Of a stretch of 35,771 nt of DNA, positions 20,705 through 33,116 are shown piece after piece. Origin of the DNA: Pseudolabrys sp. (GTDB lineage Bacteria; Pseudomonadota; Alphaproteobacteria; Rhizobiales; Xanthobacteraceae); NCBI GenBank assembly GCA_025451355.1, contig JANWKN010000046.1:1-35771 (forward strand). Reading direction: 5' to 3'. Numbering within the stretch: the first letter of the stretch is position 1; each line of letters starts with the position of its first letter. A program made the translations under genes and the position numbers. The notes under the pieces are model-generated. The model was not told where the DNA came from. It saw only the letters and a program-made list of their open reading frames with translations, and did not search any database.

Positions 20705-21057
20705 CTGTATAACGGCCGGATAGCGTGTGGATATTAGGGGAAGAGGCCATGGCTTGACCTTACAGGCAACCTGACGTCGGTTTGAAGTCCAATATCCATC
20801 CACACTGGTGACAATGGGACGAGTACTGGGACGAATGTGGTTCATGTCGTTTTATTGTGCATACCCTCTTGGGGATGGACGGGGATAGCTACCGAAAACC
20901 CCTGCAAAATAGGCGCTGGGGCTGTGGAAGAGTTACCTGCCCGATTGGGCCTTATTCTGGATAGAGCCCTTCCATCCAGTGGACAGAATGTTGACTGGCA
21001 GGCATGAGTCCAATCAACGCTCTAACAACCACAACAGATTCTTAGAAGAGTCTTTGA
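20705..21057. promoter_or_regulatory. Candidate oriC / cell-cycle regulatory region in the ppsR-hemE divergent intergenic
   Basis: hemE-adjacent intergenic; TGTGGATAT (20726-20734) is one mismatch from the DnaA box TGTGGATAA; weaker matches at 20796-20804, 20836-20844, 20923-20931; three GANTC sites at 21006-21010, 21037-21041, 21048-21052. Confidence 0.35.
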
Positions 21058-27838: not shown

Positions 27839-28642
27839 TCAGGGTAATATTGCGAATGCCCGCGCCGGGAACCCGAGTCCTTTGCGCACTTTCGGCCAAG
27901 TGACGACGATCAAGGCGCCTTTCGTGGGGACTTTATCGAGGTTGGCCATGATCTCGATCTGATAGTGGCCGTGCTGGAGAATATACGTTTCAGATTCCAT
28001 CTTGTCGGTTGTGTCAGTGTCCATTGCCTCGTGGCCGGTCGCCGTCACACCGCGCTGCTCGTAAAGGAACCTGATGGTCTCAAACGCCCAGGCAGGGAAT
28101 GGCGCACGCTTGAAACGTTCTGGATTGCTGTCCCAGTCTTTGTACATGTCGGTACGTAGCGCGACGAATGCGCCGCGCGGAACGCGACCGTTCCTCTTCT
28201 CCCATCGTTGCAGATCAGCGACCGAGAACGCGTGGCTCTCGTCCTTGGCTTGATAAGGCGTATTGTCGAGGACGACTAGCGGCAAAATCATCTGCTTCAG
28301 CGGGATCTCATCCAGGGTAATTCCTTTCTGATCGAAATGCGCTGGAGGATCGACGTGCGTGCCGTATTGCCCGACCATTTCGTAAAACGTCGCGCGGAAA
28401 CCGTCTTTGGCAATCGTGTAAGGCTCGTGCGTTTTGGGATCGACCGCAGCCGTCATCTTTGCCTGACCAAATCCCGACCACACAGGCGTGTCAGGCCCAA
28501 AGCTATGCGTGAGATCGACATATTGTTTAGACGCGATCACGCGATACGCGCGCGTCAGATCGCTCTGGGCTCTCGTTGATGATGCTGAGCAGATTGAAAC
28601 CGTAATGGAAAGAAGGACAACAAGTCGAAGCTTCGAAATCAT
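27839..28642 (-). CDS. Cyclase-family protein (kynurenine formamidase-like), exported
   Basis: Signal peptide MISKLRLVVLLSITVSICSASSTRAQ; YVDLTHSFGPDTPVW...YGTHVDPPAHFDQKG...GAFVALRTDMYKDW...GHEAMDTD. Confidence 0.88.
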   Translation of the reverse strand: MISKLRLVVLLSITVSICSASSTRAQSDLTRAYRVIASKQYVDLTHSFGPDTPVWSGFGQAKMTAAVDPKTHEPYTIAKDGFRATFYEMVGQYGTHVDPPAHFDQKGITLDEIPLKQMILPLVVLDNTPYQAKDESHAFSVADLQRWEKRNGRVPRGAFVALRTDMYKDWDSNPERFKRAPFPAWAFETIRFLYEQRGVTATGHEAMDTDTTDKMESETYILQHGHYQIEIMANLDKVPTKGALIVVTWPKVRKGLGFPARAFAILP

Positions 28643-28771
28643 GGCGCGTCTCCGGATCGGAAAAACGCAAGATCATATCGTGACCGCTCCTCGCGATCAC
28701 GCGCGCGCTTAAATGACCCGGTAGAGGCGCACGACCGTTGCCTCGGGCAACGCGGGTTCACAAGCTAAGGT

Positions 28772-28972
28772 TCAATGCCAAGAATAAATTCCTCTAGGGC
28801 TTAACGCCCCATAAAGTGTGTAGGCGCCGTAGAGAATGAACGCGCGAGTGCGCTCGGGGTACGTTGCGGTGAAAGGATACGCGCTAAGCAGGGCCGCACG
28901 CTGCGCCAAAGCGTTTGCGGGGCTTGACCCATGCTCGGGCCGGCGCTTCCGTGCGCCGCGATGTCTAAACAC
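28772..28972 (-). pseudogene. Possible alpha/beta-hydrolase relic
   Basis: Minus-strand ORF contains ATYPERTRAFILYGAYTLYG, resembling the ATYPERVxALVLYGAY motif of alpha/beta hydrolases; no flanking domain found. Confidence 0.3.
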
Positions 28973-30433
28973 ACGCGTGAGACCATTTACGCGCTTTCGT
29001 CAGGTCGGCCGCCGGCGGCGATCGCGGTTATCCGCATTTCCGGACCGGCCGCTGGCGAGGCGCTTAAGACAATTGCTGGAAAGATTCCTGAAGCGCGAAC
29101 TGCGACACTCGGGCGTGTCCGGGGACGCGATGGCGAGATCATAGATGAAGCCCTGACGCTGTGGTTTCCGGCGCCGCACAGCGAGACGGGCGAGGACGTT
29201 GCCGAGCTCCAGGTTCATGGTGGGCGCGCAATCATTGCATCCGTTTTTGAGGCACTTTCGTGCGTGCCCGGATTGCGTCCGGCGGAGGCCGGTGAGTTCA
29301 CTCGGCGAGCTTTCGAGAACGGCAAGCTTGATCTCACCGCCGTGGAAGGTCTTGCAGACCTGGTGATGGCGGAGACGGAAGGTCAACGTCGCCTTGCCCT
29401 TCGCCAGATGCGCGGGGCATTGGGTAACCGCGCCGAAAATTGGCGAGCACAACTGATACAGGCGTTCGCGCTAGTTGAAGCGCGCATTGATTTTTCCGAT
29501 GAGGCTGACATCCCGCAGGATCTGGTGACTCCCGCGCTACGGATCGTGCGCGCGCTCGAAGGGGAGATCGCGTCTGTATTGGCCGACCGTGGCCGGGGCG
29601 AAAAACTGCGCGAGGGTCTGGTGGTCGCCATCGCCGGTCCACCCAATGCCGGAAAGTCGACGTTGCTTAATCGAATTGCAAAACGCGAAGCGGCGATCGT
29701 TTCACCGTATGCTGGGACTACGCGCGACGTCATCGAGGTCCACCTCGATCTCGGAGGACTGCCGATGACACTCGTCGACACGGCGGGCATTCGCGAGACC
29801 GATGATCCCGTCGAGCTTGAGGGTGTTCGACGGGCGCGCGACCGCGCCAACGCAGCCGATTTGGTCCTTTGGGTGGTGGACGCGAGTGAGAAAGTGACGT
29901 CACCCCTCCTCGATCGAACGTCCGCCGGAAAGATGGCTGCCGCCGCACCGGTCTGGGTCGTGCGCAACAAGATCGACCTTGTGCAGAACGGCGAACAAAG
30001 AAATGAACACCGAAGCCAAAGCAACGGAAGCAGTGAACCCCAATACCGGGTTAACAAGCCGTTAGCGGACGTGGTTAACCATCAGTTAACGCGTACTAAT
30101 GAATTTGAATTCAATGTAGGTGAACCGGCATTCGATCTTTCAGCCAAGTCTGGCGAAGGATTCGGTACCCTGATTGACCGGCTTACGATGCATGCCGAGA
30201 CCTACCTGACCGGAGCCGAGGCGGCACTAGTCACCCGCGAACGCCATCGGCGAGCCCTTGAGGATGTGGTGGCTGCGCTGCGCCGAGCACTGCGGGATGA
30301 TCTGGCAAGGCGCGAAGATCTGCTCGCTGAGGAACTGCGAATCGCCGCTTGCGCCCTTGGCCGCTTGACCGGCCGAGTTGACGTTGAGGATATCCTGGAC
30401 GCGATCTTCCGGGATTTCTGTATCGGCAAATAG
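28961..30433 (+). CDS. mnmE: tRNA uridine-5-carboxymethylaminomethyl modification GTPase MnmE (TrmE)
   Basis: MSKHTRETIYALSSGRPPAAIAVIRISGPAA...VVAIAGPPNAGKSTLLNRIAKREAAIVSPYAGTTRDVIEVHLDLGGLPMTLVDTAGIRET...C-terminal DFCIGK. Confidence 0.98.
   Translation: MSKHTRETIYALSSGRPPAAIAVIRISGPAAGEALKTIAGKIPEARTATLGRVRGRDGEIIDEALTLWFPAPHSETGEDVAELQVHGGRAIIASVFEALSCVPGLRPAEAGEFTRRAFENGKLDLTAVEGLADLVMAETEGQRRLALRQMRGALGNRAENWRAQLIQAFALVEARIDFSDEADIPQDLVTPALRIVRALEGEIASVLADRGRGEKLREGLVVAIAGPPNAGKSTLLNRIAKREAAIVSPYAGTTRDVIEVHLDLGGLPMTLVDTAGIRETDDPVELEGVRRARDRANAADLVLWVVDASEKVTSPLLDRTSAGKMAAAAPVWVVRNKIDLVQNGEQRNEHRSQSNGSSEPQYRVNKPLADVVNHQLTRTNEFEFNVGEPAFDLSAKSGEGFGTLIDRLTMHAETYLTGAEAALVTRERHRRALEDVVAALRRALRDDLARREDLLAEELRIAACALGRLTGRVDVEDILDAIFRDFCIGK
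29981..30130 (+). other. Enlarged, low-complexity linker in the MnmE G domain (between NKxD and SAK)
   Basis: 50 residues VQNGEQRNEHRSQSNGSSEPQYRVNKPLADVVNHQLTRTNEFEFNVGEPA lie between NKIDL and FDLSAKSGEG. Confidence 0.7.
30051..30089. promoter_or_regulatory. Tandem CtrA-like boxes inside mnmE
   Basis: TTAACAAGCCGTTAG (30051-30065; TTAA-N7-TTAG) and TTAACCATCAGTTAA (30075-30089; perfect TTAA-N7-TTAA), 24 bp apart. Confidence 0.45.
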
Positions 30434-30483
30434 GGCAAAAGATGGTGGGGAGCGAGGGCCAAGTTCCCTCCCTGCCCTCGAAA

Positions 30484-30499
30484 TGTTTCACGTGAAACA
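30484..30499. promoter_or_regulatory. parS: parS centromere site (perfect 16-bp palindrome)
   Basis: TGTTTCACGTGAAACA in the mnmE-mnmG intergenic, near parAB. Confidence 0.95.
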
Positions 30500-30576
30500 C
30501 TTTAGAAAACACTTTGCTGAAGCCAATGTTTTTGACCCCTCCTCCCGCCTCCGGTAAAACCCCGACCTCTGAGGTC

Positions 30577-32451
30577 ATGATGGCTATCCGATTCGACGTC
30601 GCGGTCATTGGCGGCGGCCACGCCGGCTGTGAAGCCGCGGCTGCAGCCGCCCGTATGGGAGCCCGAACGGCGCTCTTCACTCACCGCTTTGCGACCATCG
30701 GGGCTATGTCCTGCAATCCGGCAATTGGCGGACTGGGAAAAGGCCATCTGGTCCGTGAAATAGATGCTTTGGGTGGCCTCATGGGCCGGATTGCCGATTT
30801 GGGTGGGATACAATTTCGCGTTTTGAACCGGCGCAAAGGACCTGCGGTCCGCGGTCCGCGGGCCCAGGCTGATCGCAAGCTGTATGCATCCGCGATGCAG
30901 AGCGCGATCTGCGCCACGCCAAACCTTGAGGTGATTGAAGCTGAAGTGGACGACCTCAAGCTAACAAACGGCCAGGTCCACGGAGTGAAATTGGCCGATG
31001 GACGCGATATCTCGGTGGGCGCCGTCGTGCTCACGACCGGCACGTTTCTGAGAGGCCTGATTCATATTGGCGAAAAACAAATACCGGCGGGCCGTGTCGA
31101 CGAAGCGCCGGCCATGGGCCTTTCCAGAACACTTGAGAATTTCGGATTTTCGCTGGGGCGTTTAAAGACCGGAACGCCACCACGGCTCGATGGCCGCACA
31201 ATCGATTGGTCCGCGCTTGAGATGCAGCCTGGCGATGATCCGCCTGAGCCTTTTTCAGTTCTGACCGCGCGAATTGAAAACCCTCAGATCGAATGCGGTA
31301 TCACGCGTACCGTCGAAGCGACCCACAGAATTATCCGGGACAACGTCCATCGCTCACCTATGTATTCGGGACAGATCGCGAGCCGTGGTCCGCGCTATTG
31401 TCCTTCGATCGAAGACAAGATCGTCAAATTTGGGGAGCGGGAAGGGCACCAGATCTTTCTGGAGCCCGAAGGTCTCGACGATCACACCGTCTATCCAAAT
31501 GGAATTTCTACGTCGCTTCCGGAAGAAGTTCAGCACGCTCTCGTGGTTACAATTCCTGGCTTGCGCAATGTGCGATTAATACGTCCGGGTTATGCGATCG
31601 AATACGATTACATCGACCCGCGAGAGCTCGCGCCAACGCTGCAAACAAAACGTTTGCGCGGTTTGTTTTTGGCTGGGCAGATAAATGGTACGACAGGTTA
31701 CGAAGAGGCGGCCGCACAAGGCATTCTGGCGGGCCTCAATGCAGCTGCGCTGGCCGGAGAGGGCGATGAAATCGTCGTCGATCGCGCGCAAGCTTATCTT
31801 GGTGTGATGATCGACGATCTCGTTACGCGTGGTGTCAGCGAGCCTTATCGCATGTTTACGTCGCGCGCCGAATATCGTTTGCAATTGCGCGCGGACAATG
31901 CTGATCAGCGATTAACAGATACCGGAATTGCAATTGGATGTGTGACCGGTGAGCGAGCGCGCACACACAAAGCAAAATCGTTAGCGCTGAAAGACGCGCG
32001 CGAGTTTGCAAAGTCAATTTCGATCACGCCAAAAGAAGCTGAACGTTTTGGATTATCTCTGAACAAGGATGGGCAACGGCGCACCGCGTTCGAGTTGTTG
32101 TCACATCCGAACATTACGATTTCAGATCTCGCAAAGGTCTGGCCACGCTTTAACGAACTCCCAGTGAAACTCGCAGAGCAAATCGAGATAGACGCGAAGT
32201 ACGATGTTTATCTTTCGCGCCAGGCCGCGGATATCGCAGCATATCGGCGCGATGAAGGTTTTCAATTGCCGCCCGACTTCGACTACGCGGCGTTGCCCGG
32301 TCTCTCGAATGAGATGAAACAAAAACTGCAAACGCATCGTCCACGCACGATCGGACATGCAAGTCGTATCGACGGCGTCACGCCGGCGGCGCTAACTTTG
32401 CTTGTCGCGCATGTCCGGCGCGGCAAAAAACCTTCAACGAAATCTGCGTGA
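30577..32451 (+). CDS. mnmG: tRNA modification enzyme MnmG (GidA)
   Basis: [65 protein letters not shown]...start refined to MMAIRFD. Confidence 0.98.
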
Positions 32452-33116
32452 GCAAGGGCGGGCAGGGGGCTCCCGATTCTGTTGTCGATAAAGCGCGCGC
32501 ACTCGCGCTCGTTCCTGTTTCACGTGAAACGGAAGCGCGGCTCGACATTTTTGTCGATCGCTTGGTGCACTGGCAAAGCAAACTGAACCTTGTGGCGCCA
32601 TCGACGCTTCGCGACCTGTGGACGCGCCACCTTGCTGATTCGCTCCAACTCCTGCCCTTAGCTCCGCAGGCTCGCGTTTGGGCCGATTTCGGTTCGGGTG
32701 GTGGCTTCCCCGGGGTACCAATTGCTTGTGCCCTTGCTGAGCAAGCCGGCGCCAGGGTTCACCTCATTGAAAGCAATGGCAAAAAGGCAGCCTTCCTTCG
32801 CGAGGTGGTAAGGGCGGCCGTTCTCCCTGCGGTCGTCCACCAGGAGCGCATCGAAAAATTTGGGGAAAGCTGTGCAGAAGCCGTGCAGGTCGTCACAGCG
32901 CGTGCCTTGGCCCCATTGAAAACATTGTGCGCTCAGGCATTTCCTTTCGTTGCTGCAGGAGCCATGGGTCTGTTCCTAAAGGGACAAGATGTAGAGGCTG
33001 AATTGACCGATGCCGCTAAATATTGGAGACTTGAGGCATCGAGGGTACCAAGCAAGACCGATCCCGGCGGCTCAATTGTTGTGATCCGGAGCCTTGAATC
33101 TCTGCGCGAATCCTAG
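32448..33116 (+). CDS. rsmG: 16S rRNA (guanine-N7) methyltransferase RsmG (GidB)
   Basis: [52 protein letters not shown]...[19 protein letters not shown] start overlapping the mnmG stop. Confidence 0.96.
32516..32531. promoter_or_regulatory. parS: parS-like site inside rsmG (15/16 match)
   Basis: TGTTTCACGTGAAACG within the codons for PVSRETE. Confidence 0.85.

Follow-up and report, generated by a model that had tools for sequence, protein, structure and literature searches.

The mnmE gene of a Pseudolabrys genome carries, between the G4 and G5 motifs of its product, an AT-rich in-frame insert with two CtrA-type boxes (TTAA-N7-TTAA) close to a parS site, which raises the question of whether these letters are kept for the DNA or for the protein. 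In the window, by which we mean the whole analyzed stretch of 35,771 nucleotides, the main features are as follows.

28931–30433, plus strand: mnmE, the host gene, encoding a tRNA modification GTPase (Pfam TrmE_N, MMR_HSR1, and MnmE_helical)
29978–30139, plus strand: insert of 54 residues between G4 (NKID) and G5 (SAKSGEG), AT-rich and disordered in the structure model
30051–30065, no strand: box 1, TTAACAAGCCGTTAG, one base off TTAA-N7-TTAA and perfect in some relatives, for example, G033 and G029
30075–30089, no strand: box 2, TTAACCATCAGTTAA, a perfect TTAA-N7-TTAA that recurs in relatives
30484–30499, no strand: parS, TGTTTCACGTGAAACA, in the gap between mnmE and mnmG

An alternative start codon of mnmE, ATG at 28964, may be the true start, and the gene is followed by parS, mnmG, rsmG, parA, and parB. 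An earlier note on this DNA had described a perfect TTAA-N7-TTAA in mnmE, a box one base off 24 bp upstream of it, the location of both within an extra MnmE segment, and their closeness to parS. All of this was found in the window: box 1 starts 24 bp before box 2, both are in the mnmE frame within the 54-residue G4–G5 stretch, and some 400 bp separate parS from box 2. Likewise, the hemE intergenic region, which the note had described as free of TTAA-N7-TTAA, contains none between hemE and ppsR (20846–21057). No TTAA-N7-TTAA other than box 2 occurs in the window; dinucleotide shuffles predict 0.12 copies, with at least one in 11 of 100 shuffles, and on the window alone box 2 is only mildly improbable. 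The significance of the boxes comes from their conservation in relatives and not from the window alone.

The insert has a GC content of 46%, as compared with 62% in the remainder of the mnmE ORF. In the AlphaFold model of MnmE, it forms the sole long stretch of low confidence, with pLDDT below 50 at residues 346–385, and in an alignment to solved MnmE it falls in a gap; the loop is predicted from the model to be disordered. Tandem repeat finder detected no array spanning the window insert, and an Rfam search over 28500–32500 found no known RNA. Among 35 genomes of the same genus, the G4–G5 stretch ranges from 18 to 208 residues and usually has 25 to 45% GC, against 62 to 71% for the gene; in a few of the long inserts, GC-rich sequence takes up much of the length. 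The MnmE frame of G003 (L084) has 977 codons and an insert of 208 residues, which is GC-rich but has an AT-rich end with ARTGAAY. In the parseable representatives of other genera of the family, the stretch has 13 to 39 residues of mostly ordinary composition, and short AT-rich linkers are present at G4–G5 in some near genera.

TTAA-N7-TTAA occurs in 16 of the 35 genus inserts, at 22 sites, in species that share descent and are thus non-independent. Synonymous shuffles of the 35 inserts, in which every protein sequence and each insert's codon set were preserved, gave about 6 to 7 sites, and none of 500 reached 22. With 20 spread representatives, 15 sites were observed as compared with 5.0 in shuffles, and 0 of 2000 reached 15. 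Spacings from N0 to N15 other than N7 are absent or rare in the 35 inserts, with the exception of N9, which is the gap between paired boxes. In these genomes, neither the box nor plus-strand ARTGAAY occurs in 39,399 bases of mnmE preceding the insert, as compared with 22 and 78 copies, respectively, in 7,557 bases of insert. The layout recurs as one or two TTAA-N7-TTAA 24 bp apart, followed by ARTGAAY nine bases past the last GTTA; this module is 66 bp (22 codons) long, and some relatives have two copies of the 66-bp unit.

On the MnmE tree, the module is found within one clade (30 rows, support 97/87), in which 15 rows have boxes and several losses occurred; G020, which has a box, lies outside this clade. 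No close replacement box was present in the four box-less clade members examined, and no TTAA-N7-TTAA was detected in the fetched mnmE region of the genomes sampled from the family's other genera. Because these other genera were sampled without boxes and several clade members lost them, the element is lineage-specific and dispensable over evolutionary time. The earlier note had held that its idea would fail if the motif was not conserved in relatives with the insert; the 16 box-bearing inserts favor the idea, and the losses in several lineages count against it.

Codon usage within the module was compared with the rest of mnmE. Valine is encoded by GTT in 16 of 16 cases (12% outside), leucine by TTA in 17 of 18 (1.5% outside), serine before GAA by AGT in 8 of 8 (5% outside), asparagine before GAA by AAT in 8 of 8, and glutamate by GAA in 16 of 17; in the rest of the gene, TTA, AGT, and GTT are minor codons. 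As to conservation of the boxes versus the amino acids, a comparison that the earlier note had proposed, the wobble bases in box 2 and ARTGAA are fixed (codon identity of 0.86–1.0 given the same residue), the asparagine wobble in the box 2 spacer is free (0.45), and the mnmE flanks have a value of 0.54. Box 1 is looser than box 2, with its leucine encoded by TTA or TTG. Moreover, Asn, Ser, Thr, Asp, and His interchange between species and the DNA stays xxTGAA. The best reading of these patterns is that the DNA letters of the insert are under selection. The proposal that the insert is kept for a DNA-level rather than a protein-level role is upheld in so far as the boxes recur, the choice among synonymous codons tracks the letters of the boxes, and the loop is predicted to be disordered; its origin role, discussed below, is not.

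The insert also holds ARTGAAY and an associated inverted repeat.

30002–30008, plus strand: ARTGAAY copy 1 (AATGAAC)
30032–30038, plus strand: ARTGAAY copy 2 (AGTGAAC)
30098–30104, plus strand: ARTGAAY copy 3 (AATGAAT), at the end of the 66-bp module
30100–30113, no strand: TGAATTTGAATTCA, a TGAA-N6-TTCA-type inverted repeat

The ARTGAAY motif, which RTTCA often follows, has a wider distribution than the TTAA boxes and, counting both strands, is found in every one of the 35 inserts, with or without boxes. TGAA-N6-TTCA occurs 23 times in the 35 inserts versus 9.2 in shuffles, and xxTGAATC is present in the short AT-rich linkers of near genera. Because the motif is strand-biased and all 78 plus-strand copies are in frame 0, there are hints of a codon- or protein-level contribution at ARTGAAY. 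Among other candidate motifs, GANTC (CcrM) was rejected with a count in the inserts not above shuffles, as was the alphaproteobacterial LexA-type GAAC-N7-GAAC, of which the inserts have none. An IHF-like GATCAA-N4-TTR is found in seven inserts versus 1.9 expected from shuffles, with a first base that misfits the consensus W, and the IHF consensus WATCAA-N4-TTR itself is not enriched in the inserts. The carriers of the IHF-like motif are G025, G015, G006, G032, G013, G018, and G028, mostly with the motif soon after G4. The G020 insert (L085) has four GAAC-N4-GTTC inverted repeats, and the G007 insert (L025) has a parS-like GTTTCACGTGAAAC within mnmE.

Judged from motif and gene content, CtrA is likely the reader of the boxes. 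It is a credible one because the genome encodes it and sister genomes show an excess of TTAAC-N6-TTAAC. The ortholog in the window's own genome, at G000:C94:2447–3118, has 85% identity to a Caulobacter CtrA query. Genome-wide motif statistics were obtained as pattern counts against a reversed-motif control. TTAAC-N6-TTAAC occurs 259 times versus 61 for the control, summed over 22 genus genomes, and 22 of its 30 loci in G006 and G013 are outside long frames. In the own genome (G000), the counts are 6 versus 10. The genome-wide frequency that the earlier note had asked about likewise gave no excess there, with TTAA-N7-TTAA counts of 17 versus 31. The ctrA upstream region, taken as a positive control, has no perfect box within 500 bp in the genus. 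In H. neptunium, the CtrA consensus is TTAA-N7-TTAAC, and intergenic DNA contains 211 of the 222 CtrA sites (PMC7200025). A literature search for Pseudolabrys and CtrA returned no match, and one for CtrA and mnmE matched only gene transfer agent work.

The insert could also be viewed as the chromosomal origin or a part of it, in line with the replication control that the earlier note had considered. The insert is AT-rich, the GC-skew minimum is in the neighborhood, and TTATCCACA, a perfect DnaA box, is present in inserts. However, the window insert has no DnaA box, and the hemE–ppsR intergenic region is oriC-like, with DnaA-box-like repeats, a DnaA-trio-like CTACTACTA, and an AT-rich stretch in several genus members. 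The skew minimum lies from about 22 kb to a few kb upstream of the insert in most genomes, which is too broad to decide alone. In G012 (L105–L114), the hemE/ppsR/rho block is inverted and found 45 kb from mnmE on the other side, and the skew minimum, at +38 to +48 kb, has moved along with hemE, not mnmE. The oriC-like DNA and the skew minimum thus go with hemE–ppsR, 9 to 45 kb away; an origin inside mnmE was ruled out by these two observations, the insert is not the chromosomal origin, and we give the origin view next to no weight. An indirect effect of the insert on replication may exist. The likely oriC is the ppsR–hemE region of the window (20846–21057) and the same intergenic region in G004, G028, G034, and G035, with GTGGACA/GGGGATA repeats and AT-rich DNA; three of these four relatives have the trio-like stretch. 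The DnaA box is restricted to 3 of the 35 inserts, those of G005 (L023), G022 (L024), and G004 (L034), and the G004 copy is the sole one in 200 kb.

We therefore favor, with a probability of roughly 0.55, a DNA control element that sits within a translated, disordered MnmE loop and is bound by CtrA. The AT-rich in-frame G4–G5 insert carries the module, selection acts on the DNA letters, and the protein loop is probably a passenger. Phosphorylated CtrA would bind the boxes, and ARTGAAY/RTTCA is a second signal with a wider distribution. Bound CtrA might alter transcription through or from mnmE toward mnmG–rsmG–parA–parB or, alternatively, the state of the nearby parS region, and the outcome could be a cell-cycle input. 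Control of mnmG–rsmG–parAB by the boxes may be the simplest idea of their role. A scan of 29700–30700 for sigma-70-like promoters gave no match near the boxes, and in G020 another gene is located between mnmE and mnmG with the box still present. In all genus members amenable to the check, parS lies close to the stop codon of mnmE, and it is near mnmE in most genera without the insert as well. In G020, G012, and G017 (L085, L044, and L087), mnmE and mnmG are separated by about 1 to 2 kb and parS stays beside mnmE; the intervening frame in G020 is chemotaxis-receptor-like. A fuller version, in which the disposable loop of a tRNA-modification gene holds cell-cycle regulator sites beside the centromere parS and links CtrA to mnmG–parAB transcription or to segregation, with a second factor reading TGAAY-N4-RTTCA, is tentative and possible rather than probable.

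The element could instead be selected as DNA and read by another factor, such as a nucleoid protein, a partition-linked protein, or a regulator of TGAAY-N4-RTTCA, in which case the TTAA boxes would not be CtrA sites. The presence of ARTGAAY in box-less inserts, xxTGAATC in the near-genus linkers, and the lack of CtrA-motif enrichment in the own genome would fit such a reader, whereas the exact N7 spacing and the TTAAC-N6-TTAAC excess of the sister genomes point to CtrA, and we regard another reader as unlikely. An insert acting at the level of translation or protein, with the boxes as by-products, would be an AT-rich linker of rare codons or a peptide repeat (K/R-N/S-E) that serves the folding or interactions of MnmE; it would explain the single frame of plus-strand ARTGAAY, the minor codons, and module copies that differ by 22 codons. 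However, shuffles that keep protein and codon set fail to give the observed box counts, the wobble constraint ends at the box edges, and the predicted disordered loop is very variable in length and sequence, leaving this explanation quite improbable. That boxes arose by chance in AT-rich DNA and were retained by common descent accords with the mild improbability of the single window box, the relatedness of the species, and the losses; it is largely refuted by the shuffles and by flank codons that are far diverged while box codons stay, and is very improbable. Rickettsia palindromic elements are in-frame DNA inserts in conserved genes, and the mnmE insert, which is in-frame, repeat-built, and equipped with inverted repeats, resembles them in this respect. 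Those elements are dispersed, whereas the mnmE insert is a single locus: DNA and protein searches found no second copy in the genome, such that a mobile palindromic element was rejected and has a negligible chance of being correct.

The proposed element shares with known alphaproteobacterial CtrA boxes (TTAA-N7-TTAA[C]) the half-sites, spacing, and tandem arrangement, in a genome with a CtrA gene. However, its boxes are inside an ORF, in a translated loop that seemingly exists for them, whereas H. neptunium sites are mostly intergenic (PMC7200025). Similar to the CtrA sites at the Caulobacter origin (PMC7200025), the boxes are in an origin-proximal region, but they are away from oriC, and the window hemE–ppsR region lacks a perfect box, as the S. 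meliloti origin lacks CtrA motifs (PMC4433202). In Caulobacter operons, internal cell-cycle promoters have transcription starts inside coding sequences that control downstream operon genes, with factor motifs nearby (PMC4287350); those starts are in existing genes, whereas here a dedicated insert holds the sites. It looks like a regulatory array for which the protein made room, as opposed to one squeezed into existing codons, and it offers a natural system in which selection on the DNA and selection on the protein can be told apart within the same codons. If CtrA binds, the insert would give these Hyphomicrobiales a possible route by which CtrA reaches the centromere region near the origin with no CtrA sites in oriC itself.
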